IMG/VR virus record: IMGVR_UViG_3300020200_000132
Location: 1 to 28,997 of that record
Reading direction: 5' to 3' (one strand)
DNA from: a virus
Length of the DNA stretch: 28,997 nt
Shown here: positions 1 to 18,730 of the stretch, piece by piece
Position numbering within the stretch: the stretch's first letter is position 1
How the letters are laid out: every line of letters begins with the position of its first letter
Position numbers and translations under genes: made by a program
Notes under the pieces: generated by a model
The model's input: the letters and a program-made list of their open reading frames with translations, nothing else
Databases searched by the model: none
What the model was told of the DNA's origin: nothing

Positions 1-2509
1 TAGGAATTACTATCAAATTATTGTTCGGATAACCATAGTCAGTGGCAACACCATATGAGTGTGGTATAGCCCATATATCAAATTGAACTGTTGGATATAA
101 AGCTACACCAACTTGACAGCTAAATCCAGATTCAACGCTTGCAGGAAATCCTGCCGGGATATTGTGTGGGTATGTTCCAGCTACAACGGGATTCCATGGG
201 CCTTGGACTCCGTTAGCTGTATTTATTTTTTTAGCCATTTGATTATCTAATACTAAAAATCCAGCAAATAACTCTCCTTGTGATCTATTGAAAGATGGCA
301 GTATTAAACCTTCTCCATCATTTTCTGCGCCATGAAGATCTACAGCCCAAGAAACAAAAATTGTTACTTCAACATCTGTTTGAGAAATATATCTTTTTGA
401 TGACCATATATTTGAAAATTTAGCAGCAGCCATTTGTCTTCTGTCATTATTTCCAAATCCAAATTTAGATGAGAATGACATTGGACAACAATTAAACAAT
501 TTAGCATCTACTCTCACATCAGCTACCCATGAAGCTTTTCTAACTACAAAACTTTTCTTTACAAAGCAAATAGAATAATATCCCCCTGGATTTGGATAAG
601 TATTATTATTCCCAACGAGACTAGGGAATGAACCAAATTGTTTTGTATTAGATAATAACGGGGTGGTGTGCCAGGGATGCATTCCATAGCCCCATCCATG
701 GTCAGCATAATTCCTTCTTGAATTTTGATGGAAGTATGTATCATATCTTTCATGCATGATAGAAAAGTTCATAAAATCTGTATCGTATGCACCTCTATTT
801 GTATACCCTGGTCTAGTGACCCATTCAGCTAAATCCCAATCTGGAATAGGTTTAAAGATTGTTCCTACAGGATAATCATAAATTGATCTTAGAACATTCA
901 ACATTTCTGACTGCTGTGAAAATCCAAAAGGTTGATTCTTCTTTAAGAAATCAGTTAAAGTGGCCTCAACTCCATATCTCAGTCCGCCCTTGATATATCC
1001 ACTTCTTATTATTCTTGGAGTATTAGTTGTAGATAATATACCCGTTGGGATTCCGCCCGCCAACTGATTTATTCTTTCATTAACTTCTCTAACAGATAAA
1101 TCAACATACCCTTCAGATGCTACAGGATTAGCCAATGAAACTTGAGGAGTAGCCGCAGCTAATCCAGATCTTTCATTATAAGATAATTCAGTTGTTCTGA
1201 AGAAAGGTCTGATATCTACAATATCTTCAGTAGGAATTATCCCTTCCGTTATTTTCTTTCTTACAACATAAGCTACCGGAAGAATTGTCTGACCGACTAA
1301 AGCTATATGCCCATTCTCTAAGTTTTCAGATAGAAGAGGAGAGAGATTCATTAAATCATCTGGGGATGGGAATGATCCTTTTAGCTCTCCTATACCAATA
1401 TCAATTCCTAATTCGTCTGAAATATTTGGAAGTATTATTTGATTTCCGTCTATATCTGCTAAACTTAACTCAGTTGTTCTATTATCTGGACTTGTAATTT
1501 CTTGTCCTGCTAGATTAACACCTATAGCTCTTTTAAAGTTTAAGCCTATTCCTGCTCCCTTAACTATTCCAAGCATTGGCTTATTTATTGTAGTTGGAGA
1601 GTTATTGTTAAATTTAGCTATAGTTGTTGTTGGAGCATCAATTGGTTTTGAATAAATAAATACTAAATCTATTCTTTGTGTTGCAGTTAATTGTCGTTTT
1701 TGACCTAACCTATCTAAGTAAAAATAGTCATCATCTGTAAATTCAGGTATATCTATAGATAAAACTTCATCTACATTTACGACAGAAGTTCTTGTTACTC
1801 CTCTCCATCTTTTAATAAACTGAGATTCCAAATATGGATGAACTAGGAATCCACTTTGTGAATTCCATGTCTCTTCACTTACTGAGCTAGCATTTACATT
1901 ATAATCTGGTCCATGGCCTGTCACCATTGGGTATGGCAATAGTCTTGTGATAGGGTCTGTCGGAGGAGTTGTATTGTAACCAGGGGAAGATGAGAGCAAA
2001 AATTGGCTTGGACTATCTTTAGATAGCATTGCCCTTACAAAACTTCTTTCAAACAATCCATTCATTGATAATGAATTTGCTTGAAGATTAGTTTTAAATT
2101 TATCTAAAGTTTGAAGTAATTCTTGGTCAGCTACAGTTCTATTATCATATGTATTGAATGGATAGGACGGCAATTGTCTTATAATTTGTAGTGGACTTAT
2201 AGAATATGCATCATTTATTCTAGCAATATATTTTCCTGGCCTAACATAAACTTTAGAATCAGTACCATTCACATAAGGAAGAAGCTCATCAAAATCACTT
2301 CTTTTTACTTTCCCTTGTTGCCCTGATTCACTACTTGTTTGGAACATTCCTCCTGCAAGTCCATTTATTTGATCCTTTAAGAAATTGCAATTCTCTTGTA
2401 GCTGCTTTAAAGGTATATTATCTACCTCGTAGAAGTATGGATCATTAGCTTTAAAATATCTGACTGGATCAGTATACTTATAGACAGATGAGAATGGTTG
2501 AATTGTCAT
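1..2509 (-). CDS. Virion structural protein, probable baseplate/fibre component (3' end cut by window edge)
   Basis: The frame is open from an ATG at 2507-2509 to the left edge, giving 836 codons with no stop, so the C-terminus is missing. The start is supported by a Shine-Dalgarno AAGGA (2516-2520, minus strand) six bases upstream. The ATG overlaps the preceding gene's TAA by one base (TAATG). The N-terminus carries YEVDNIPLKQLQEN at residues 27-40, followed by a heptad-like stretch. A closely similar motif occurs in the next gene upstream (residues 34-57 of the 1193-aa protein). I recognise the general type from large marine myovirus virion proteins but cannot give it a T4 name. The rest is rich in Pro, Asn, Ser and Tyr, as in beta-structured tail proteins. 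Being last in the appendage end of the operon, it probably sits at the baseplate periphery. The structural role is fairly sure; the exact role is unknown. Confidence 0.75.
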   Translation of the reverse strand, partial: MTIQPFSSVYKYTDPVRYFKANDPYFYEVDNIPLKQLQENCNFLKDQINGLAGGMFQTSSESGQQGKVKRSDFDELLPYVNGTDSKVYVRPGKYIARINDAYSISPLQIIRQLPSYPFNTYDNRTVADQELLQTLDKFKTNLQANSLSMNGLFERSFVRAMLSKDSPSQFLLSSSPGYNTTPPTDPITRLLPYPMVTGHGPDYNVNASSVSEETWNSQSGFLVHPYLESQFIKRWRGVTRTSVVNVDEVLSIDIPEFTDDDYFYLDRLGQKRQLTATQRIDLVFIYSKPIDAPTTTIAKFNNNSPTTINKPMLGIVKGAGIGLNFKRAIGVNLAGQEITSPDNRTTELSLADIDGNQIILPNISDELGIDIGIGELKGSFPSPDDLMNLSPLLSENLENGHIALVGQTILPVAYVVRKKITEGIIPTEDIVDIRPFFRTTELSYNERSGLAAATPQVSLANPVASEGYVDLSVREVNERINQLAGGIPTGILSTTNTPRIIRSGYIKGGLRYGVEATLTDFLKKNQPFGFSQQSEMLNVLRSIYDYPVGTIFKPIPDWDLAEWVTRPGYTNRGAYDTDFMNFSIMHERYDTYFHQNSRRNYADHGWGYGMHPWHTTPLLSNTKQFGSFPSLVGNNNTYPNPGGYYSICFVKKSFVVRKASWVADVRVDAKLFNCCPMSFSSKFGFGNNDRRQMAAAKFSNIWSSKRYISQTDVEVTIFVSWAVDLHGAENDGEGLILPSFNRSQGELFAGFLVLDNQMAKKINTANGVQGPWNPVVAGTYPHNIPAGFPASVESGFSCQVGVALYPTVQFDIWAIPHSYGVATDYGYPNNNLIVIP

Positions 2510-5500
2510 TAGTTATCCTTATTTAGATCAAATGTGTTTGGAGACTTGAAACCATCCCCTCTATTCTTTTCAGGCTCTTCTGCTGATTCTCCACCAAAAT
2601 AAAGATTATATGGAAAATTTATTGCTACTTTTGTTGCTAACCCAGATTTTCCTACTGTATTATGTTTAGCATTAGCGAATAAATTTGCCGCAGAATCATC
2701 TAATGTAGCATTTATTAATTTTGGATTTGATACTATAGAAGAAGCATAATAGAATCCAGATGCAACTGAACTATTAGTTCCACTTGGATACAATATTGAT
2801 TTATAATAGGTTGTCCCAAGTCCACTAAAGTTTAAATTACCTGAGAATTGATAACCTTGGGAATATACTTGAGGGAGATAGCCAATCAATCCGGTAGTAG
2901 CTATACCATCAGCATTATTTATAGCTGGATCTATTGAGAAGTATAATCTAAATGGTCCTCTATTTTGATATGAATTACTAGCATACCTATGATTGCCCGC
3001 TGCCGATCCATAATAATCTAATATAGATACAGACCCGGTATCTGGGGTATCGGCTGGTGCGCCGCTAGCATTCCCCCAAGTCCCTAGAGGACCTACATAA
3101 GCTGTTTCAGATGGATACATTCCACTTACTGAAACTAGTCTTGCATTTAGTTGTGAAGTATCAGCAATATTCCATAAGAATGTTTTACAGCATAGTCCCT
3201 CTGGACCGCTAGCTTCATATATAAGTGCGGATGGAACCCACCATCCACACGGGAAGTGGACATTATCTATATCAACTTTAGAACCTCCTAAAGCTCTTAC
3301 GCACATACCACCATTAGTTACTGAACTAAACAAATATGAATTTTCAGGAGTTCCATAGTTTGCTCCAACTGAGAGTATATAACCAGCACTAACATTTGAA
3401 TTTATTGTTGGAGTTATTGGTGATGTATAGACTGAAGTTGTATTTAAGTCTGATAAAATATTTGACTCTAATTCAGAATAGGCATTGTAGCTATTTGGAT
3501 TTGGGTAAAATTGTAAAGCTCCTGAAGCCGTAAAGTTACCATAAATATTATCAAATATTTCTTTTTCTACTATCGGAATACCAGATCCATCAATTATATT
3601 TGTCCCAGTTGATGATCTTCTCCAAATGTTTTCATAGCTTCCCAAATCTTTTGCTATAAAATTAGAATTGTTATTTACTACAACACAAGATCTAGAAGAG
3701 TGAAGTTCAACAATAGTATGATTTAGACCACTGCTTAAATTGAACTTATCTACTTCATATCTATTGTTTTTATCCTTATGTGGAGTCAGTTCTATATTTG
3801 AATTATTATCTGCTAAAAGATCTACTCCAAATTGAGCTATTAGAGTTGGACCTTGAATCTTTACTGTAGAGTTGTTTCCAGCAAATAATCCAGATTTATT
3901 TTTTTGAATATCATATAACTCTTGTTGAAAAAAACCATCTGCTGGATCATTGGAAAGATTTGATCCAATTATTTTAGTTATATAATTTCCTGTTCCTTGT
4001 AAAGTAAGTTCAGAATTATTTGTTACAGATATAGCATGACCATTAACTGTGCATTTAACATCATGAAGTGCATAGCCTAAAATAGGTTGAGTATTAATTG
4101 TAGGACTTACCAATCTCAATTTTGAATTTGAATCAACTACGATATTGGGGAGCATCAATCTTTGACTGCCTAAACTCTTTACAAACGCAGCATTCGCATC
4201 TCCAAAATAAGATTGATGATACCTAGTAGGCATTGAATAAGTATCAGTCGGTTCAAAGACAGAATTTATTAACTTTATATGTGTCTGATTTCTAAAAAAT
4301 GCTAACTGCCCTAAATCATAAGTATTTGTAAAGAAGGTAGTGTCTGGCACATAGCAATCTTTGTTGTATCTAAGATAGGAGTTGTTTAATAGAACTCCTT
4401 CTCTTTGATTGTTTTTGCACACTAACTGGTCTAAGACTAAATTAGAGTTATTTGATTTTATTCCTATGTAATTTGCAAGAATAGCTAATCGACCAGAGTA
4501 ATCTATTTGTGAATTTTCTAACAAAATTCCAGCTTCGGTATTAAGTTCGCATATTAAATTTGAATGATGATAATCTTCATCTAAAACTGTCAATCCATAC
4601 TTATCGTTTTTCTGATTTCTTCCTCCAAGTATGATTGAATTTATGGCTTTTATTCCAACATCATTCTTTGAAGTACAGAATAGCCATGAATAAGCTTCAT
4701 AAGCTGAAGCAGTTAGTGGAGAGAATTTATAGAAATGTTTTATAGCACTGGCACCATAAGCCAAATCTCTCGCAAACGTGGAACTAAAATTTAATTCTGA
4801 ATTTATAAGTTCTATACCAGCAGAATAGAACTTTTGATCAGTGTAATAATTATCAAATAAAAGTTTTGTAGTCCAAGGCAAACCTATTCTAACACCTGAC
4901 TCGTTGAAGCCATAATTTCTATAAGCTACGAATCCTCTCGTTAGAATTACTTTTGAATTTTCAGCATGAAGGCCAGCCTTATTAGCCCTAGCTACTGAAC
5001 AACTTTCTATTACTACAGTTGAATTATTTATATCAATACCATAATCTCTTCCGCCATAACTTCCACCATCAACTGTAAAATTTCTTATGTATATTGGACC
5101 ATTACAATTATAAATTTTTATTTGATTTAATCTATTGGTGTATGCTAAAGTTGTAGCTGGACCGCTGGTATTAATAAAGTTCCATTCTATTTGATCATCA
5201 CTATAGTTGTTAATATTACTAGCATCATAAGATCCAACATAGGTGCTATCAGGGCTAGCTGGATATAAATCATATGGTTTAAATGCTGTTAGACCACTTG
5301 TAGTTGATGCTCCGTCCTGCCCAACATATGTAGTAAATGGTTGAAGATCATTTGTCGCAGCGAGCGCAGCAGTTAATCTATTTGTACCATTTAAATATTG
5401 TTTTGTAAATAATGTTAGGTTACCAGTAATTCTTGAATCATAAGTTGTGCTGCTTGTAACAACAGAATTTAATGATAATACCTTTGATAGCTTGAAATCT

Positions 5501-6090
5501 GTTGGAATACAAGGAGCACTAGAACCATCTGTACTATTAACACTAAAATTTGAATTTATTAATGAATTTGGGATATAAACAGACGATGCAATTCCCTTTT
5601 CTTGAGAATAGGTATCAGATCCAAACTTTTCTGAGTTTAATGTATAAATATCTCCCGCTGAAGTTTGAAAACTTGAATGTATTTTTGAAAAGTTTCTATT
5701 TATTATTTCAATTGATCCTCTTGGACCAAAAGTTTTATTTGATAAAATTAAAGATCCAATATTCCCATAGCTAGCAACTTCAATTAAATAAGGACAATTT
5801 ATTACCTCTGGAAGGGTTGCTAGACAAGAACTTAAAGTTTTAAATATATTTGAATCGCAAGAATCTGAGGCATCCCCCGATACAACTAAGGCAATCCCAT
5901 CAATAGAAGATGTTGGGTGCCCTAGCCTTTCCCAGAGTAAACTAGTTCTTTCTTCAAGATCAAGAACTGGTAAATTATCTTGTTCCCAGTTATAGAATGA
6001 GCTTGAGTCAAATTTAGTTACAGGAGCAGTCCAGCACCCGTATAGTTTTGAAAAGCCGTAGCCTGTATAAACGTCACTTGGATTTATCAT
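2509..6090 (-). CDS. Large beta-helix tail appendage protein (tailspike/fibre-like), 1193 aa
   Basis: This is a 1193-residue protein at the distal end of the baseplate operon. Residues 34-57 hold an N-terminal motif (NWEQDNLPVLDLEER, then LLWERLG) shared with the downstream gene. Residues 60-135 form a compact domain ending in a GSIEIINR-type segment. From about residue 320 to 860 it shows an irregular ladder of Asn-Ser turns followed by alternating hydrophobic residues (356, 378, 430, 484, 526, 548, 570, 609, 655, 692, 740, 763, 808). Examples are NNSTVVI, ENSKVIL and NNSELTL. This is the look of a right-handed parallel beta-helix, the fold of many phage tailspikes. The C-terminal third is Gly/Ser/Tyr/Asn-rich and probably a receptor-facing or trimerisation region. 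No catalytic residues could be assigned, so binding versus depolymerase activity is open. Its stop overlaps the next start by one base. Confidence 0.75.
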   Translation of the reverse strand: MINPSDVYTGYGFSKLYGCWTAPVTKFDSSSFYNWEQDNLPVLDLEERTSLLWERLGHPTSSIDGIALVVSGDASDSCDSNIFKTLSSCLATLPEVINCPYLIEVASYGNIGSLILSNKTFGPRGSIEIINRNFSKIHSSFQTSAGDIYTLNSEKFGSDTYSQEKGIASSVYIPNSLINSNFSVNSTDGSSAPCIPTDFKLSKVLSLNSVVTSSTTYDSRITGNLTLFTKQYLNGTNRLTAALAATNDLQPFTTYVGQDGASTTSGLTAFKPYDLYPASPDSTYVGSYDASNINNYSDDQIEWNFINTSGPATTLAYTNRLNQIKIYNCNGPIYIRNFTVDGGSYGGRDYGIDINNSTVVIESCSVARANKAGLHAENSKVILTRGFVAYRNYGFNESGVRIGLPWTTKLLFDNYYTDQKFYSAGIELINSELNFSSTFARDLAYGASAIKHFYKFSPLTASAYEAYSWLFCTSKNDVGIKAINSIILGGRNQKNDKYGLTVLDEDYHHSNLICELNTEAGILLENSQIDYSGRLAILANYIGIKSNNSNLVLDQLVCKNNQREGVLLNNSYLRYNKDCYVPDTTFFTNTYDLGQLAFFRNQTHIKLINSVFEPTDTYSMPTRYHQSYFGDANAAFVKSLGSQRLMLPNIVVDSNSKLRLVSPTINTQPILGYALHDVKCTVNGHAISVTNNSELTLQGTGNYITKIIGSNLSNDPADGFFQQELYDIQKNKSGLFAGNNSTVKIQGPTLIAQFGVDLLADNNSNIELTPHKDKNNRYEVDKFNLSSGLNHTIVELHSSRSCVVVNNNSNFIAKDLGSYENIWRRSSTGTNIIDGSGIPIVEKEIFDNIYGNFTASGALQFYPNPNSYNAYSELESNILSDLNTTSVYTSPITPTINSNVSAGYILSVGANYGTPENSYLFSSVTNGGMCVRALGGSKVDIDNVHFPCGWWVPSALIYEASGPEGLCCKTFLWNIADTSQLNARLVSVSGMYPSETAYVGPLGTWGNASGAPADTPDTGSVSILDYYGSAAGNHRYASNSYQNRGPFRLYFSIDPAINNADGIATTGLIGYLPQVYSQGYQFSGNLNFSGLGTTYYKSILYPSGTNSSVASGFYYASSIVSNPKLINATLDDSAANLFANAKHNTVGKSGLATKVAINFPYNLYFGGESAEEPEKNRGDGFKSPNTFDLNKDN

Positions 6091-10800: not shown

Positions 10801-11805
10801 TAATTGCAGTCTCCATCTATCTGGGTCTGATCCAAACAAATTCCATCCAATGAGATTCGCTAGTAATGGCAGTTGCTCTTTTGAACATTCATCAATATCA
10901 TTTAATGATTTTAATTTTTCAATATCATTATCATAATCAAATGCAGCAAATGAAAGAGTTTTTAGTAGTTTATAAAAAGGACCTTTTGAAACAAGTTCTT
11001 TTATTGTCTGGTTGTTATCTTTAAACAAATAAAATCTATCTCTTACTGTAAAATCCGCTTTATCTGCATAAAGATTGGAGTAAACAATATCTATCCAAGT
11101 TTTTAATTTATCTAATTGTTGGGTTCCGCTTTCATACTTCCCTGTTGAACTAACAAATACTGAGGGGTAGTAACTTGTATAGTTATTCTTCCACAAAAAT
11201 TCCATTAGTAACTTAATACAATCATTTAGATTTATTTCAGATCCTAAGAAAAGTTTATTAGAGATTAGATCTGCTATTTCATCATAAACATTTGTTACTG
11301 GGCCAGAAGTGTTCAGGAAATACAGCCAGGATAAATCTTGTATTAGTTCTATATGAGAGGCTGACGCGGGCGAACCTTGATTAAAATAGCTTGTTGGACT
11401 ATTCAATCTTATAGACGGCAGAAGAGTATCCAGCAAATAGTCTTTAAATTCCTCTGTGTTCTTAAATTCGCTAAAAGAAGTTCCAACTTTATCTAATATA
11501 TTTAAATAGAAATCATTTGCATTTATATTAGTTAAATCATTTTGCTTTATAAAATATCTGTATATTCCATCAAAAGAATTTATTGAACTAAATGCTGTAT
11601 TACTTATAGCACTAATATTTAAAACAGAAGATATATTATTTGCTAAAGATATATTTGAATTTATTATCTCATCCTTTACATCATATTCTTCATCGTAAGT
11701 AATAGCATCATCGAATAAAAGATACTTAGGAACAATATGCTCTAAAGCTTTAGAGTAATTTGATTTAAAGTATTTGTTATTATTGATGTAAATATTATTA
11801 GACAT
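7843..11805 (-). CDS. Giant baseplate wedge protein with a gpI (gp7-like) domain, 1320 aa
   Basis: This is a 1320-residue protein directly after the gp6/J-like gene, overlapping its stop by one base. Residues about 305-360 match the tail-protein-I pattern. There is EQLPLLANLIGWNLFG, then a basic/aromatic stretch with DRWRLQL, then KKAGTKKSLQFAL, corresponding to the conserved KGT-like element of P2 gpI. In T4 the corresponding wedge protein is gp7, which is also very large. The N-terminal 300 residues are mostly helical and Asn/Asp-rich. The remaining 950 residues are beta-rich, with many Tyr, Asn and Ser, and have no recognised domain. The order gp25-J-I is the classic contractile baseplate wedge. 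P2 gpI is under 200 aa, so this protein carries about a thousand extra residues. The wedge assignment is fairly sure; the function of the extension is unknown. Confidence 0.75.
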   Translation of the reverse strand: MSNNIYINNNKYFKSNYSKALEHIVPKYLLFDDAITYDEEYDVKDEIINSNISLANNISSVLNISAISNTAFSSINSFDGIYRYFIKQNDLTNINANDFYLNILDKVGTSFSEFKNTEEFKDYLLDTLLPSIRLNSPTSYFNQGSPASASHIELIQDLSWLYFLNTSGPVTNVYDEIADLISNKLFLGSEINLNDCIKLLMEFLWKNNYTSYYPSVFVSSTGKYESGTQQLDKLKTWIDIVYSNLYADKADFTVRDRFYLFKDNNQTIKELVSKGPFYKLLKTLSFAAFDYDNDIEKLKSLNDIDECSKEQLPLLANLIGWNLFGSDPDRWRLQLKNAVSIYKKAGTKKSLQFALNSIFPKNQFDIETGIKELWECYLPNLIYYSLATESTYFTANDIGARSEPNFDLQGTLIQLGVSSGFSTRNLDHNIRLATDAILLDLYNSFSGSFISWRSYEGPFVFYYRNREYPIPPFEEYPYYVNVEFNYEMIQAIMDRLVCFGVPRSFAEKVRDYITENIIDTDEEIRASSWLFFTSGYTPPPNLEDLILNSNSNRSEYASLWSGKSSHFKLDLNSSNFDFGKKIDEVGSGGAVILASKAINEFSPAHAIPLINLNLSSIDKVESEEYNLPIVNINGIEVLETNKIQSNYQASALNIGAYKRNTGVGTNFNRFELNTLASKAYTNSVSLNSIPRNSIRRRNYDKLLPKNGYYDRTGFNMPVSFDMSSSLSGIPLGFIPSSLKFESITNYIDLPEIYSTCQNLNSNKSFYGYNVSNTTRCRGHLPISYFSSNDYYIDRSQLPEIFQTMHRVGESKKVYPSIKNFSGTPAVQFLWKNVYRSGTNLEFISANSFPASMNDYTNFKFGKDLHKLYQIYTKEFNRHTLTDYILDLDGNNFTSHVYGPLIYNYDFDTVNSSYVTSSLEEENLILDKDNIFSIAAVQLTNLGTYVQSSLISTRTDFVNSSMINGMDLIMTSSTNLASDYFSIFRVASKNKIFGTSDYMYDRTFLKMSTVAQNGINSQRLRINVCYSSIPTANGYPSSRNFLLPEHEFKLKINGLMSSYNGLILGGGGVGSIIHTKPVNNAAWFYGLDGHWHYESLEIDGFMRNIQNYLHKYTYNDIVRQHEEPSGPSIIRLNCIDIVQNRERTVTPLLTFSKDDFFECEFNFHTYNPYFGKYSKDYYLSSNFETIHSKTQDYFIEIFPIVNNITSGENKKFLLLDKVEIIDSTMNTMASVISSDDNECPANRVYLEEVDLRNIFKFWNYISGKNSGIGLASRVASGTSSVLLSDGGSRLDYKLSVDWLQAGTSTKYTTVGNILNTFKVPV

Positions 11806-13397
11806 TAGACTAGAACTATATTAACAGTAAAGTTGTTTAATTGTATTATTTCGTTAAACTCAATTTTTATTGTGGAATCAATATTATCTAAGGTAGCATA
11901 CCTAACATCTGTCAAATCTAAGATATACTTTATTAGATCTTGTGGAACAAAAGGGTCCCCAAAATCACTGTTATCAACATTAAAGTATTCTAATATTTTA
12001 GAAGATATTTTATTTTTTATTTCGGTTTGAAAGTTTTTAAACTTCTTATCAATAGTAGCAGTAATAAAAATATCTAATGTTCTTATTAAGCCATCAACTA
12101 TCACTGGCTCATCAGTTATCATCTTCTTGTCCTGGATAGCTTCAAGCAATTGCTTCTTGTACTCTGGGGTTGCTTTCCTTAACTGAATATCTGAGGCTCT
12201 TTCTAGTATGAATAAATCAATCATATTGGCAGATGAGTATGCTCTTCTGACTACTGCATTTGCCTTCCCCGTTGAGCCGTAATTTGAAATAAAAGAATTT
12301 GCAAAAGCCTTATAATCTGTTAAAGTTACTAACCTATCTTGGCTTCTAAATACCAGTGGGGCATATCTTATAGCCTTTTGAATTGACTCAGCGTCAGAGC
12401 CCCCTGTTCCCTGACTGCTATTTTCTAATACTCCATTTGATTCTAAAGTTGTAGCTCCATCTGTTAATGTAACTTTTATAGGAGCATTTATAACTTCTGA
12501 TGCAATATTTCCTCTGGTGCCTCCTCCGACTCTATAACTTATTGTATAATCGTCATTAACGGCGGGAGACAATCCTACCGAAGAGTCTCCAAATATTATC
12601 GTAGCTTTAAAATCATCATTTGTTGTAACTTGAAATATTTTGTCGCTTGGCCCAGAAGCAAAATAGATATTCTCTTCTTCTTTATAAATTCCTTGTGTTT
12701 GAGGAGATCCTTCAATATAAATTTGAGCACTCTTCTCAACATAAGGAAATTGAGATAGTTCAACAGTTTTTACAACATCATTATCAAAGAATATGCCTTT
12801 CTCAATAATCAAAGCTCCCTCTAGAAGCACAGCATCATCTATTACTATACTACCTCCAGAATTTGATACTTGAAACTCTAAATTATTTGATCTATTTTTT
12901 AAATCAACAGTCCCATCAACATTAACTTTATACAATGTGTATGTTATAGGTGCGGAGTCTTCAGAAGAATTAATAGTTATAATCCTATTTTCGGCTAGGA
13001 CTGATGCTGATGAGGCAGCATAGGCAGTTTTAATTGTTACCTTGGCATTGGCTGCTGCTGAGATAGGGCCCTTCATTCTAATACCTATTAACTCTAATAG
13101 CTTTTTTACGCTATTTCTTTCTCTAGCTGTTTTTAAAAAGTTTTCATTTGCCAAATAGTCAGATTTAAATGATTGAATATGACCGACAGCAGCCATCATC
13201 TCAATAAGAAACATTCCAAAATCTGATTCAGAAAAATTTGAATAATCTGATGCATAGACAGCTTTAGCATAATTTAATAAGGTGTCCCTAAATGTTGCAT
13301 AGTCTCCAGCGGAATAGTCTAATAGTTTTTCTCTATTATCTAAATCTGTTGGAACTAACTTTAAAAAATCAGATGTTACTTTTCCTGTGAAAGCCAT
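11805..13397 (-). CDS. Baseplate wedge protein, gp6/J-like
   Basis: This 530-residue protein forms the wedge core of the contractile baseplate, the ring that links hub and fibres and triggers sheath contraction. The N-terminus has the family pattern: LLDYSAGDYATFRDTLL (residues 26-42), an acidic SDFGMFLIEMMAAVGH segment (58-73), then YLANENFLKTARER (81-94) and LLELIGIRM (100-108). Residues 287-300 give the strand-turn YRVGGGTRGNIAS, and QDRLVTLTDYKAFA (353-366) is the J-type motif before the C-terminal domain. The C-terminus ends in short alternating strands, as in baseplate J proteins. It overlaps the gp25-like stop and the next start by one base each and has no Shine-Dalgarno, so it is probably translated by coupling. 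The family assignment is strong; T4 gp6 is somewhat longer. Confidence 0.87.
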   Translation of the reverse strand: MAFTGKVTSDFLKLVPTDLDNREKLLDYSAGDYATFRDTLLNYAKAVYASDYSNFSESDFGMFLIEMMAAVGHIQSFKSDYLANENFLKTARERNSVKKLLELIGIRMKGPISAAANAKVTIKTAYAASSASVLAENRIITINSSEDSAPITYTLYKVNVDGTVDLKNRSNNLEFQVSNSGGSIVIDDAVLLEGALIIEKGIFFDNDVVKTVELSQFPYVEKSAQIYIEGSPQTQGIYKEEENIYFASGPSDKIFQVTTNDDFKATIIFGDSSVGLSPAVNDDYTISYRVGGGTRGNIASEVINAPIKVTLTDGATTLESNGVLENSSQGTGGSDAESIQKAIRYAPLVFRSQDRLVTLTDYKAFANSFISNYGSTGKANAVVRRAYSSANMIDLFILERASDIQLRKATPEYKKQLLEAIQDKKMITDEPVIVDGLIRTLDIFITATIDKKFKNFQTEIKNKISSKILEYFNVDNSDFGDPFVPQDLIKYILDLTDVRYATLDNIDSTIKIEFNEIIQLNNFTVNIVLV

Positions 13398-13840
13398 TAT
13401 AAGTTAAAATTAAATTCAAAAGTTACTACTTGTTCATCATTAAGAGTACAGTCCAATAGTACCATTAATTGTGAAGTTTCAGTCTCAAATATTTGTAGTG
13501 CAGAAACTGAAATTTTACTTAAATATCTAGATATTGAAGTAAGTATTGTGTCTCTTACTTGAGAAAAAGTAATCTCATCCATTGGTTCCATTAAAAATCT
13601 TTTTAGATTACAACCGTAGTTAGGAAGCATAAACCTTTCTCCAGGCTCAGTTTTTAAAAGCTGTAATAAATTACTTTTTATTAAATTTAATCCAGTTTCC
13701 TTGGAGAAGTAACCACGAGAACCATCTTTTTCTATAGGATACTTAAATCCTATATTTTTTTTAATTTTTAGGTTAACAGTATTATTCGCTCTTTGTGATA
13801 GAACTTTACCATAAATATTTACATTATCTGAGGTTGTCAT
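13397..13840 (-). CDS. Baseplate wedge protein, gp25/W-like
   Basis: This 147-residue protein is of the GPW/gp25 family, the small wedge component that nucleates the sheath at the baseplate. The diagnostic core motif is at residues 65-69 (EPGER), followed by FMLPNYGCNLKRFLMEP, matching the conserved E-P-R element of the family. Two helices (TGLNLIKSNLLQLL before the motif, ITFSQVRDTILTSI after) and a C-terminal beta segment (VVTFEFNFNL) complete the usual layout. Its length is typical (T4 gp25 is about 130 aa). It lies directly upstream of the gp6/J gene with a one-base overlap, the universal W-J order. The upstream neighbour is the glycoside hydrolase, an unusual insertion between the spike and gp25 genes. 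The identification is secure. Confidence 0.93.
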   Translation of the reverse strand: MTTSDNVNIYGKVLSQRANNTVNLKIKKNIGFKYPIEKDGSRGYFSKETGLNLIKSNLLQLLKTEPGERFMLPNYGCNLKRFLMEPMDEITFSQVRDTILTSISRYLSKISVSALQIFETETSQLMVLLDCTLNDEQVVTFEFNFNL

Positions 13841-15963
13841 TAATATAACCTATAAAAATCATTAGTTTTTGCTGCTTCTTCTAATACGTCAAGATATCCA
13901 TTAACGTAATCAAAGGCAGTATCAAACCATTCATCGTACTTCCACCAGTCTGGAGTGGTATTGGTTCCTGGTGTAATGTAATACCCAGTTCCTGAAGCCC
14001 AAAATTTAGTAGAACTTATATTATCTAAATTTTCATTATCAGACCAAATCTGTATACTTGATCCATCTCCATACCCCTGTTCATTATTTAAACCCCTTAG
14101 ATATTGCCAAAGATGACCGCTAGCTTGTAGTCTAAGTGCTGAAGCTGGCAGATAATCGTATTGGGATCCAATCAAATATGCTTGAGGTATAGGCTCCCAT
14201 ATATTCATTATAAATTGAAAACATCTTTCAAGAACAAACATTTTTTTAACAGCTTGTTCATTTAATTGCTTATATATTGGACCAGAAGAAGTACTAGGAA
14301 TTATCTGATTTTCTGATATTGAATTATCTATTAAAATAGAAGAGAAGCTTCTAAAATATGTTTTGTAATTTCTACAAGCACTAATATAGTCAACTAGATC
14401 AACACCATCTGAAACATAGGAAGTAATTAATGGACTGTAAGGATTTTTATCATAGTAGGGCACATAATTTTTTGATTTAGTTACAAAATCTAGTGTGGAT
14501 GATAAAACGGCTCCAAGTGCATTTAATACTGGGGCATTATAAACTGCGGCTGCTATAAAATTCCACTTTTCTTGGGTAGTTGAGACATGAAGATCTGAAT
14601 CATACCTTTCATGCCATGGAATAGTCGCGCTGTAATATCCAGAATCTTTTTGAATATTAATACTATTTTCTTTTTGTTCAAACTTTAATTTTAATTGAGA
14701 TTTTTTTAGCCAACCATGTTTCAATGCTAACTCACTATATGATTCAGCATCATCAGATCTTCTTGTAGTCCCATCCCAATGAAAGAGTCCTTGAACACTA
14801 GCAAAAGGTAAATGGGTTAACCCTAAATCAATTAAACCTTGCCAAACCATTCCACCGTAATTCTTTCCATCATTCATCCACTCAATAATATCTTTATAAA
14901 AAGTATTCGGGGGTGCCCCACCTTCGTTATACATTGAGGGTCTTCCTATAATTTTAGATGCAGATACAGCTTCGTCTACATACCTCTCAGCTACCATTTT
15001 TGAATTAGTAATATATGGATGTATAGATGCAAAATTATAGCTAGAAGAAAATTGTATTAAATCAGATGGGTATAAAGGATAAGGTGATCCATTATTTGGC
15101 CCCCCTGTCAAAGTCCCACTATAAAATCTAAAAGTATCCCCATTTCCAAAAGTTATACCAACATTTATAGAAGATAATAATGAACTTATTAAATAAGAAC
15201 TACTAACGATTACTTCACTAAATAAATGGGGTCTAGAACTTGAGTCAGTTTCATTAGCTAAATCAAAAGACCAAAAAGATTGAAATGAAGATAAGCTAGA
15301 GCATAAATCATTTATAAATGGCACTGCTGAATTATTGTAAAAATTTTGAGCGGCAGATTGCGACGATACTTGATATTCAAAAGGAATTCTATTCCAAGAT
15401 TGGGCTAATCCAAAATATACTGGGTCTGTATATAATTGTGTCGCAGAACCAGTCCCTGTTACAGAAAAATCAGATCCAGGCTCCATTAATTGTGATCCTT
15501 GTGGAACATATGTTGAATCAAAAATAACTAATTGAACTCTTATTTTATGCTTTTCGCAAAGACGCATAAAGTCTTTAGTATCCTTTAGATATTTTTCTTT
15601 ATTTTTATTCCAAACATATATATTAGTAAAAACTCTAATGGCATTTATTCCAGCATCTCTAATCATTTGCAAACATTTATTATTATCTTCTGAATTGTAA
15701 TACCACCATTGAGATGTTTTGTTTGCCCCTAAAAAAGTTGACGAAGATTCAAATCCATATAGTTCAGATGATCCGTAGCCGTAGCCGGGTACTTGAAAAC
15801 TATCAACACCTATAATTTTCAAATCTTCTTTTGATAATCTAGGCATGAAGCCAGATTTTTCCCATTCTGAGTACATTATGGGAACATAGTTTACTCCTCT
15901 ACAATTAGTATAGTATTTTGTAGCTCCAGGAGAATAACCCAAATTTTGTGTTCCCTTAGTCAT
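13840..15963 (-). CDS. GH-A clan (GH5-like) glycoside hydrolase in the baseplate operon, 707 aa
   Basis: The N-terminal 420 residues read as a (beta/alpha)8 glycoside hydrolase of clan GH-A. RGVNYVP (22-28) is the first strand and DAGINAIRVFTN (103-114) carries the conserved Arg110. LANET (235-239) gives the Asn237-Glu238 acid/base pair, and IHPY (314-317) the His-x-Tyr of strand 6. SMYNEGG (343-349) places the nucleophile at Glu347, and GGMVWQGLID (370-379) the strand-8 Trp374. The two glutamates are 109 residues apart, normal for GH5-type enzymes. Residues 420-707 are an unassigned C-terminal region rich in Trp, Tyr and Ser. There is no signal peptide, as expected for a virion part. It lies 4 bases after the LamG gene and overlaps the gp25-like start by one base. 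The substrate is unknown; it probably cleaves a beta-linked host surface polysaccharide. A catalytically silent virion domain is possible but less likely given the complete motif set. Confidence 0.85.
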   Translation of the reverse strand: MTKGTQNLGYSPGATKYYTNCRGVNYVPIMYSEWEKSGFMPRLSKEDLKIIGVDSFQVPGYGYGSSELYGFESSSTFLGANKTSQWWYYNSEDNNKCLQMIRDAGINAIRVFTNIYVWNKNKEKYLKDTKDFMRLCEKHKIRVQLVIFDSTYVPQGSQLMEPGSDFSVTGTGSATQLYTDPVYFGLAQSWNRIPFEYQVSSQSAAQNFYNNSAVPFINDLCSSLSSFQSFWSFDLANETDSSSRPHLFSEVIVSSSYLISSLLSSINVGITFGNGDTFRFYSGTLTGGPNNGSPYPLYPSDLIQFSSSYNFASIHPYITNSKMVAERYVDEAVSASKIIGRPSMYNEGGAPPNTFYKDIIEWMNDGKNYGGMVWQGLIDLGLTHLPFASVQGLFHWDGTTRRSDDAESYSELALKHGWLKKSQLKLKFEQKENSINIQKDSGYYSATIPWHERYDSDLHVSTTQEKWNFIAAAVYNAPVLNALGAVLSSTLDFVTKSKNYVPYYDKNPYSPLITSYVSDGVDLVDYISACRNYKTYFRSFSSILIDNSISENQIIPSTSSGPIYKQLNEQAVKKMFVLERCFQFIMNIWEPIPQAYLIGSQYDYLPASALRLQASGHLWQYLRGLNNEQGYGDGSSIQIWSDNENLDNISSTKFWASGTGYYITPGTNTTPDWWKYDEWFDTAFDYVNGYLDVLEEAAKTNDFYRLY

Positions 15964-15967
15964 AATA

Positions 15968-18730
15968 TTACTCAGATAAAATTGGTTCCCACATCAGATT
16001 TGGTACATCAATATTTTTAAAGAAATTCTTTGATGCATTATAATTATTTAGTATTTCAGCAGCACTTAAAGGTCTTGAATAGAATTTAATTCCTCCAACA
16101 TATCCTCTAAAGCCACTTGTTATTCCTCCATATTGCCCACCCATAAAATTACCAGTCTGCATTCCATCAGTATATCCGCCCCCTATTATCCATGGAGTAG
16201 TCTCTATTTCTGGTGTATATGAGTCTAGCAATGGACCTCCCTTTAATTCATCTACTGGAACAGAGGACATGGTAGTTAAGTTATATTCAAATGAATTTGA
16301 TTTAGCTATGCTCTGAGTGTACAGATTTTCTTTTCTTATGTCAACTCCAAAGACATCTGTATAGCTAGACACAGTAAGAAGTTGTCCATCGCAGTACATA
16401 CTTATCTTGTCACCGTTTGGATCTAAAGTCAATGCTATTTGACAAAACTCTCGGCCACAAGAAGATAAAGATACTCCATTGACGCTATCCCAAATATTAA
16501 ACTTCATGTTATACCATAGACTACTTATTTGAGTACAACTGTCATTCATATCAAATGATTTGTTTACGAATCCAACACTTGAAGAATCAAATGATTGCGT
16601 CGGAGCTAATACAAGGCAAGCATCTTCTATCCTGTTATCATGACTGTTATTTGATGGTGGAAGATTAGATGTCAATCTTCTATCTCTTGTAAATCCAAAT
16701 ATTAAACCTTTTACAATATTAGGATTATTACTTCTCCTTATCTCTAATATGTTAGAATCCACAGAAGAAGCTCCAACTAAACCAGTATTTTCGTTGGCTA
16801 GTAGAAGTCTATAAAGTCCTGAAACTTCATAACCATCGCCGAATCCATAATGTTCCCCGTCTAATTCTGGTGCATAAGTCCACATCTCAAATGTGCCACC
16901 AGATCTTCTTGTAAATAAATCTTTTAATTCAGTTCTGTTTGGAAGTCTAATATAGCTTCCTACAGAACTTGGGACTGTAGGAGAGGTCATGGAGTTCCTA
17001 GTTATTCCTTCTAAGTAAGCTATGCCTACTCCCTTTCCAAATATCTCAGCCTCACTCCTACCTACTATTTGAGCATTTAATAGTTCATTAATAGAAACAT
17101 CTCTGACAAGACTTGAATTCTTTAATTTAAATTCAATTGAACTTGGATCTACTACTGTAAACCTTAAAAGATTATATAGAACAAATAAATCATTGGTGGC
17201 AATGGAATTATTTAAAGATACACTTGGAGCATCCGTATTAGTACCATTAGATACAATGCCTCCGGTAGCATAATCATTAATTTCTAAGTGATCAATTGAT
17301 ATCTTATCATTGTCTTCTACCTGCTGAACGTAGTTTACAGTTAGAGGGAGTACAACCCCAGATACATCGGCTTGGCTTAGTACAAGTTTTCTTTGTTGCT
17401 GTATTTCAACATCAAAATTAATCCCTTCTAGATAGGAGAAATCATTTACAGGAACTTCTCCTGGTCTAAACAATACTGTCCCTCTTCCATAAAGAAGAGG
17501 TAGCCTAACTGCTAATTCAATTTGTTTCTTTCTTTTATTTATCTTTTGTTGATAATGAGAACCCTCAGATAATAATACTTGTCTTAAATTTTGTATGATT
17601 ATCTCTGGCCCAGCTTCATTTTGTATTTCTACTATCTGGGAAGAAACATCAAATATTCTTCTATTCTTTTGTCCAATGATGTGCGTTAGTAATTCATCTT
17701 TCTCATAGTACGGTATAAGTTCATTTGATTCATCAATTATGTTATCATCTAGTATGGTATTAACATAAGTTTTTATATCATTTAAAGATATTTGTTTTCC
17801 CCTTCCACCTATGTTTGGATCAAAGTCTAATTTCCATGCAGAGTTTCTTTCTATTAAATCTTCTCTCCTTTGAAGTTCTATTAATACAGGCTCTACTCCA
17901 CTAGTTTGCGAATCAAAATATAATCCATCTACTGAAAAAACAAATTTTCCACTCCTTGAAACTGGAGGACCAAAAGATAATCTAATTAATTCTTCTGGCT
18001 CTGGCAACTCAGGGACCGGAGGTCTCTGAATTCTAAAATCTGTTCCTGATAATATACCTGATACTTCAGTAATAAATTCTGGCTCTAAACTTGGATCTTC
18101 CGCTCTTGCATCAAGGATTCTATCTATCTCTCTTACTAATCCTAATGCTCTATTTCTAAAGTCTACAGCAGCTTGGATATCCTTACTATGAATATTAAAT
18201 CTTTTTAAAATAATATCTCTGTACTGTTCTGCTGTCATTCTTCTTCTTTCTTGAGCAGCATTGCCACCTGTATATTTTAGTATATCGGAATATTGTTCTA
18301 AACATCTTTTTATATCTCTTATCTCATTAGCAACATTTTGAGAAATATTATATAATCTTCCAACGGTTCCTGCGGCAGACCCCAATGCACCTAGGAATCC
18401 GCCTATAGAATTTGAGTTATCTGACTCCACTCCATTTCTTGAAGACCTTGAGACTAGTCTAAAAGTTCCATTGTTAGAATCGTATTCTATAATTCCATCC
18501 AAGAATTTTAAATCGGTAAGATAACTTTTTATAGCTCTATCAGCAGCATCTGCGCCTTCCTGGGTAGATCTTTTAAGCGGCACGAGCACAGATGACGGAA
18601 TAAGATTAATTGCATTAGAAGCAAGGTTTAATAAGCATTGAGGCATTCCAAAGGCCGATCCAACAGCCTCTAGTGGTGTTCCTCCTCTACCGCTTATAGC
18701 TAAAAATGTTCTTGTATCAAAATATACCAT
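15968..18730 (-). CDS. Virion structural protein with C-terminal LamG/ConA-like lectin domain, 920 aa
   Basis: This is a 920-residue protein immediately after the spike gene (one-base overlap), with a strong Shine-Dalgarno (GAGG at 18735-18738). The N-terminal 240 residues are helical, with a Gly/Ala-rich stretch at 110-125 and basic helices up to about 210. A middle beta region includes SGKFVFSVDGLYFDSQ (260-275) and a basic KINKRKKQIELAV segment (396-408). I recall both from virion proteins of marine myoviruses. Residues about 592-905 look like a LamG/concanavalin-A jelly roll: GGTFEMWTY (611-619), ICQ-type strands at 762-784 with a DGQLL turn, and GFRGYVGGIKFYSRPLSAAE (873-892), the usual closing LamG element. 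Such domains bind glycans. With the adjacent glycoside hydrolase this suggests a paired binding and cleaving arrangement. The structural role is sure; the ligand is unknown. Confidence 0.75.
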   Translation of the reverse strand: MVYFDTRTFLAISGRGGTPLEAVGSAFGMPQCLLNLASNAINLIPSSVLVPLKRSTQEGADAADRAIKSYLTDLKFLDGIIEYDSNNGTFRLVSRSSRNGVESDNSNSIGGFLGALGSAAGTVGRLYNISQNVANEIRDIKRCLEQYSDILKYTGGNAAQERRRMTAEQYRDIILKRFNIHSKDIQAAVDFRNRALGLVREIDRILDARAEDPSLEPEFITEVSGILSGTDFRIQRPPVPELPEPEELIRLSFGPPVSRSGKFVFSVDGLYFDSQTSGVEPVLIELQRREDLIERNSAWKLDFDPNIGGRGKQISLNDIKTYVNTILDDNIIDESNELIPYYEKDELLTHIIGQKNRRIFDVSSQIVEIQNEAGPEIIIQNLRQVLLSEGSHYQQKINKRKKQIELAVRLPLLYGRGTVLFRPGEVPVNDFSYLEGINFDVEIQQQRKLVLSQADVSGVVLPLTVNYVQQVEDNDKISIDHLEINDYATGGIVSNGTNTDAPSVSLNNSIATNDLFVLYNLLRFTVVDPSSIEFKLKNSSLVRDVSINELLNAQIVGRSEAEIFGKGVGIAYLEGITRNSMTSPTVPSSVGSYIRLPNRTELKDLFTRRSGGTFEMWTYAPELDGEHYGFGDGYEVSGLYRLLLANENTGLVGASSVDSNILEIRRSNNPNIVKGLIFGFTRDRRLTSNLPPSNNSHDNRIEDACLVLAPTQSFDSSSVGFVNKSFDMNDSCTQISSLWYNMKFNIWDSVNGVSLSSCGREFCQIALTLDPNGDKISMYCDGQLLTVSSYTDVFGVDIRKENLYTQSIAKSNSFEYNLTTMSSVPVDELKGGPLLDSYTPEIETTPWIIGGGYTDGMQTGNFMGGQYGGITSGFRGYVGGIKFYSRPLSAAEILNNYNASKNFFKNIDVPNLMWEPILSE

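Follow-up and report, generated by a model that had tools for sequence, protein, structure and literature searches.

A predicted GH-A glycoside hydrolase encoded in an optional slot among the baseplate genes of an uncultured phage clade

Why does a phage encode a glycoside hydrolase of the cellulase/mannanase type between two of its baseplate genes? Most known phage depolymerases are beta-helix tailspikes, which have also served to train the prediction tools. The first-pass annotation of this locus had called enzymes of the present type rare, which agrees with the literature: TIM barrels account for 10 of 984 polysaccharide-degrading folds in phages (1.0%), and DepoScope left them out because there were too few examples (PMC11326577), yet examples of virion-borne enzymes and of phage GH5-type enzymes exist. 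We analyzed the gene in its 28,997-base IMG/VR virus record (IMGVR_UViG_3300020200_000132), called the window below, and in related phage loci.

The hydrolase gene and its predicted fold

The frame is open from an ATG and encodes 707 residues (Table 1). Its start lies 4 nt past the LamG-like gene, and at the other end its TAA stop codon and the gp25 start codon ATG share one base. Gene coordinates and Pfam matches bear out its position between a LamG protein and gp25, the LamG match being weak. A LamG-like upstream gene is common to the related loci that extend that far.

Table 1. Features of the slot region in the window and of the partner gene in type B loci
Feature	Position	Strand	Evidence
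Slot gene, type A GH-A (GH5-like) glycoside hydrolase, 707 aa	13840..15963	-	Frame, residues, barrel model, Foldseek GH5_18
Residues 1-44, including strand 1; candidate baseplate-attachment segment	15832..15963	-	Regional identities; attachment role putative
Residues 10-440, predicted (beta/alpha)8 catalytic domain	14644..15936	-	AlphaFold2 pLDDT 72.4, pTM 0.83
Asn237-Glu238, predicted acid/base, end of strand 4	15250..15255	-	Residue check, conservation, model
His315-x-Tyr317, after strand 6	15013..15021	-	Residue check, conservation, model
Glu347, strand 7, predicted nucleophile	14923..14925	-	Residue check, conservation, model
Residues 441-707, C-terminal region	13843..14643	-	Poorly conserved between types
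Upstream flank, 920-aa protein, weak C-terminal LamG-like match	15968..18730	-	PF13385 E 2.7e-4, under the Pfam cut-off
Downstream flank, gp25-like baseplate wedge protein	13397..13840	-	PF04965 (GPW_gp25) E 5e-13; phrog_261
gp6-like baseplate wedge protein, query for collecting related phages	11805..13397	-	phrog_219 E 5e-33
Type B partner gene	L011 7398-9467; L015 7409-9478; L021 7155-9536; L027 7110-9536	-	Unknown family

The 707-residue protein had no match in Pfam (including PF00150), PHROGs, NCBIfam or the PDB sequences. Searching the phage collection with it returned nothing useful, and no relative in cellular genomes turned up when the GTDB collection was scanned for a sequence pattern of the enzyme. 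One relative gave a weak GH98 match (E 0.009, below the cut-off). For profile comparison with hhalign, a GH5 profile was built from 18 GH5 sequences drawn from genomes. The match of type A proteins alone, the window's own type (see below), was weak (probability 64%, 53 columns) and that of all types reached 93%, both over strands 2-3 only; the negative control, gp6, gave 0.1%.

Enzymes of clan GH-A carry their catalytic Glu residues at the ends of strands 4, where an Asn precedes, and 7. In GH5 the full set comprises Arg on strand 2, Asn-Glu after strand 4, His-x-Tyr on strand 6, Glu on strand 7 and Trp on strand 8. The seven residues named as hallmarks in the first-pass annotation (R110, N237, E238, H315, Y317, E347 and W374) are all found at the claimed positions of the translated ORF. 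We modeled residues 10-440 with AlphaFold2 using an alignment of 20 relatives. The model (pLDDT 72.4, pTM 0.83; pLDDT 29 in an earlier structure prediction from 5 sequences) is a (beta/alpha)8 fold with eight strands and helices in order, so that the TIM barrel on which the earlier assignment hung is present in the prediction. Numbered as in the window protein, its strands 1-4 span residues 22-26, 108-112, 142-149 and 230-236, and strands 5-8 residues 269-272, 310-314, 343-348 and 370-373. In this model, strand 2 carries Arg110 and strand 7 carries Glu347; Asn237-Glu238 immediately follows strand 4, and His315 and Tyr317 come after strand 6. No confident structure model was obtained for residues 441-707.

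R110, N237-E238, H315-x-Y317 and E347 are invariant among the type A sequences that cover them (n = 7; down to approximately 29-31% identity). The Arg and His-x-Tyr of the GH5 set are thus found in all type A members, but the Trp varies: position 374 is W, F or Y among relatives, and Trp374, although present in the window, should therefore be dropped as a GH-A hallmark. Given the conservation in type A and the GH-A positions that the residues occupy in the predicted barrel, the motifs other than Trp374 are more than a chance occurrence.

Foldseek searches of the model against the PDB placed GH5_18 beta-mannosidases on top (E 1.6e-9, probability 1.0, TM 0.52-0.54), followed by GH5 mannanases and, lower down, by GH35 and beta-glucuronidase; the top PDB matches listed were all GH5 or other GH-A enzymes. 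GH5-type phage proteins were matched in the viral library. The TM-scores are modest, and the model (pLDDT 72) is moderately confident. As modeled, the window protein shares with the GH5_18 enzymes (BlMan5B, PDB 6mp7/6mpa) and GH5 mannanases the (beta/alpha)8 fold and the placement of Arg, Asn-Glu, His-x-Tyr and Glu on or after the same strands. It differs from them by its low identity (approximately 15%), long insertions, an extra C-terminal region of 270 residues and its baseplate context. The predicted barrel and the Foldseek matches thus support a GH-A fold with its catalytic residues, and the weak GH5 profile match taken with a fold search led by GH5 places the enzyme in clan GH-A as GH5-like, which is not a claim of membership in GH5.

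An optional slot and its contents

The slot protein used as a query retrieved 4 distinct relatives, and gp6 retrieved 80 loci of the same phage clade, in which the interval between the LamG-like gene and gp25 is variable. The clade is uncultured and has been seen in dozens of metagenomes. Where both flanks were visible (66 loci), the slot was empty in 44 (-4 to 29 nt) and filled in 22 (type A in 5, type B in 8 and type C in 9), proportions that are rough because the counts include near-duplicates and some of the type A and C loci came from slot-gene queries. The content of filled slots was always of this family, and nothing else was seen in the 66 loci besides a partner of type B genes. As two thirds of the relatives are without the gene, it is not a required part of the baseplate. 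The first-pass annotation had placed a complete GH-A hydrolase inside the core operon of the baseplate; the catalytic residues and the barrel stand, but the core status does not, since the gene is an optional insert and two of the three types are without catalytic residues. The optional slot is a new finding.

The three types are homologous (A-C, E 2e-58; A-B, E 2e-32). In type A, the N-E, H-x-Y and E motifs are intact. Type B (L011, L015, L021 and L027) has H-D and D, with Asp for both Glu, and is without H-x-Y. Between the type B gene and gp25 sits a gene for 689-808 residues, oriented opposite to the baseplate operon; it always adjoins the type B gene, and its product has no family or PDB match. 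In type C (L024, L025, L028, L030, L032, L037, L101, L105 and L106), N-K (S-K in one case) and A replace the catalytic residues, and H-x-Y is again missing. Fused to this dead GH-A barrel is a C-terminal domain of 450-470 residues, which had no Pfam match but aligned with GH28 in hhalign (95.2%, E 2.9e-8, 284 columns; controls below 2%), its N-x-D and GDD falling on GH28 motifs. We regard this domain as a probable GH28-like beta-helix. Residues 1-44 are the stretch best conserved between types A, B and C (40-48% identity, compared with 11-47% elsewhere), which suggests that they form a baseplate docking segment.

The gp6 tree requires at least 12 changes of slot state. The slot genes of the window and of locus L001 are 86% identical (420 residues), whereas gp25 and gp6 are 46% and 64% identical, and near the end of the slot gene DNA identity declines from 86% to 55%. 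Similarly, L011 and L015 share 94% identity in the type B gene and 97% in its partner, compared with 44% in gp25 and 54% in the LamG-like protein, and their DNA identity drops from 100% to 53% just before gp25. Conversely, a type A and a type C locus (L004 and L025) are 67-82% alike in their core genes and 30% in the slot. Judged by these identities, cassettes have moved between phages independently of their flanks, and the slot gene, lying amid tail genes, behaves as a module that is exchanged.

The slot gene is under purifying selection between the window and L001 (dN/dS 0.16). Within types B and C, dN/dS is 0.09-0.18, suggesting that the phages still need the dead barrels. A different picture was obtained for the near-identical phages L039 and L036: their slot genes are separated by some 49 nonsynonymous and 6 synonymous changes, whereas the neighboring spike, LamG, gp25 and gp6 genes together show 3 and 9 (Fisher p 2e-5). 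Diversifying selection on the slot gene is thus seen in one phage pair. In the barrel, 15 of 19 changed codons are in catalytic-side loops (P 0.004, or P 0.20 if the block of codons 50-59 is counted as one event). Judged from the pattern of changes in this pair, a diversity-generating retroelement was rejected, as the changes are gene-wide and not adenine-specific. The same two phages also differ upstream of the spike, where the proteins encoded at 1109-3673 in L039 and 1153-3696 in L036 are 72% identical, with many synonymous changes; despite this diverged ORF, their spike and LamG proteins are 100% identical.

Proposed function and alternatives

That relatives have an empty slot, the same enzyme, or a dead copy fused to or paired with another protein makes the slot gene look like an exchangeable tool against host surface sugars. 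We consider it likely that it encodes an exchangeable, virion-borne depolymerase or host-recognition module, in which a retaining GH-A (GH5-like) hydrolase, either an integral part of a contractile-tailed phage's baseplate or attached to it, would cut a beta-linked polysaccharide of the host surface during adsorption. Its location in the virion is suggested by the position of the gene. By analogy with retaining GH-A enzymes, Glu238 would act as acid/base and Glu347 as nucleophile. The N-terminal segment would probably dock to the baseplate, and exchange or diversification of the remainder of the protein would fit it to the glycan of the host. The enzymes with the nearest known structures are active on beta-mannosides; the substrate proposed for the window enzyme itself is putative. 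In relatives that retain the barrel without catalytic residues, a second protein would probably recognize or cut the glycan, namely the fused GH28-like beta-helix in type C and the opposite-strand product in type B.

This arrangement recalls receptor-binding proteins, which are modular, with a conserved docking part, an exchangeable enzyme part and frequent recombination (PMC10684548). Modular tailspike and tail-fiber depolymerases share that division of parts (PMC10684548) but are usually beta-helices, whereas here the GH-A barrel itself is the recurring scaffold. More tentatively, and close to evenly divided on the point, we suggest that the barrel may be a standard adaptor of the baseplate slot, an enzyme in some phages and in others a dead scaffold presenting a second, unrelated enzyme, with the whole cassette being traded to change the glycan that is attacked. 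Our searches of open-licence papers turned up no baseplate slot in which a GH-A protein occurs in both active and dead versions.

Judging by types B and C, the scaffold has a use even when its catalytic Glu residues are gone, and Trp374 and much of the pocket vary. Both points would fit a barrel that binds carbohydrate or has a structural part in the baseplate, the type A residues being used for binding or persisting as relics. We consider this unlikely, as the motif residues are kept together in all seven type A sequences where covered, while other positions drift.

An auxiliary metabolic enzyme, made in the infected cell against plant or algal polysaccharide and absent from the virion, appears still less probable. 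GH5-type proteins do occur in many phages, and a viral GH5 endomannanase of confirmed activity from thawing permafrost is read as an auxiliary carbon-degrading gene in the available part of that report (PMC6786970). It resembles the window protein in being a virus-encoded GH5 enzyme (GH5-like in the window), but a baseplate operon is not described in that part of the report. The slot gene, by contrast, always lies between two baseplate genes, overlapping gp25 in the window; an enzyme-only role leaves the purifying selection on the dead types B and C unexplained; and swapping with diversification is the pattern of host-recognition genes.

Peptidoglycan-directed penetration machinery, in place of an enzyme for outer glycans, is the least probable reading: a baseplate-bound glycoside hydrolase acting on the cell wall is known from Bacillus phage BpSp, but the best structural matches here are beta-mannosidases and mannanases, not muramidases, and exchange and diversification suit variable surface glycans better than conserved peptidoglycan. 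According to the available part of its description, that enzyme, Gp255, is a GH25 muramidase that belongs to the virion and attaches to a baseplate protein (PMC4870245). It is thus, like the window protein with its presumed virion location, a separate glycoside hydrolase tied to the baseplate, but it is of the muramidase type, has LysM domains and acts on the cell wall, and the same part of the source describes no swap slot.

If the slot protein is an exchangeable depolymerase of the virion, as we favor, viral GH5-like genes are not necessarily auxiliary metabolic genes. Here a GH-A family that Pfam, PHROGs and NCBIfam all miss occupies a defined baseplate slot, where active versions occur alongside dead ones. 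The natural series of empty, active, dead, and dead with a second enzyme lends itself to testing the exchange of glycan specificity at the baseplate.

Other features of the clade

The window also encodes, at 2509-6090 (-), a 1193-residue protein without a Pfam or PHROGs match, in which N-x-S-x-V/I-like motifs recur and whose sequence looks like that of a right-handed beta-helix tailspike. The closest gp6 (27%) and gp25 (30%) in the phage collection are those of a 595-kb uncultured phage (LR756511.1), in which the slot gene is absent between the baseplate genes. Shine-Dalgarno counts were uninformative on the host. One gp6-bearing locus with an empty slot (NZTP01000017.1, L107, the same contig as L083) is binned in an Altibacter MAG, a single binning that hints weakly at a Flavobacteriia host for the clade. 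In four other loci with an empty slot (L017, L018, L068 and L081), the gp7-like gene encodes 1618-1685 residues, compared with 1320 in the window, and this longer gene is perhaps another site for added domains.
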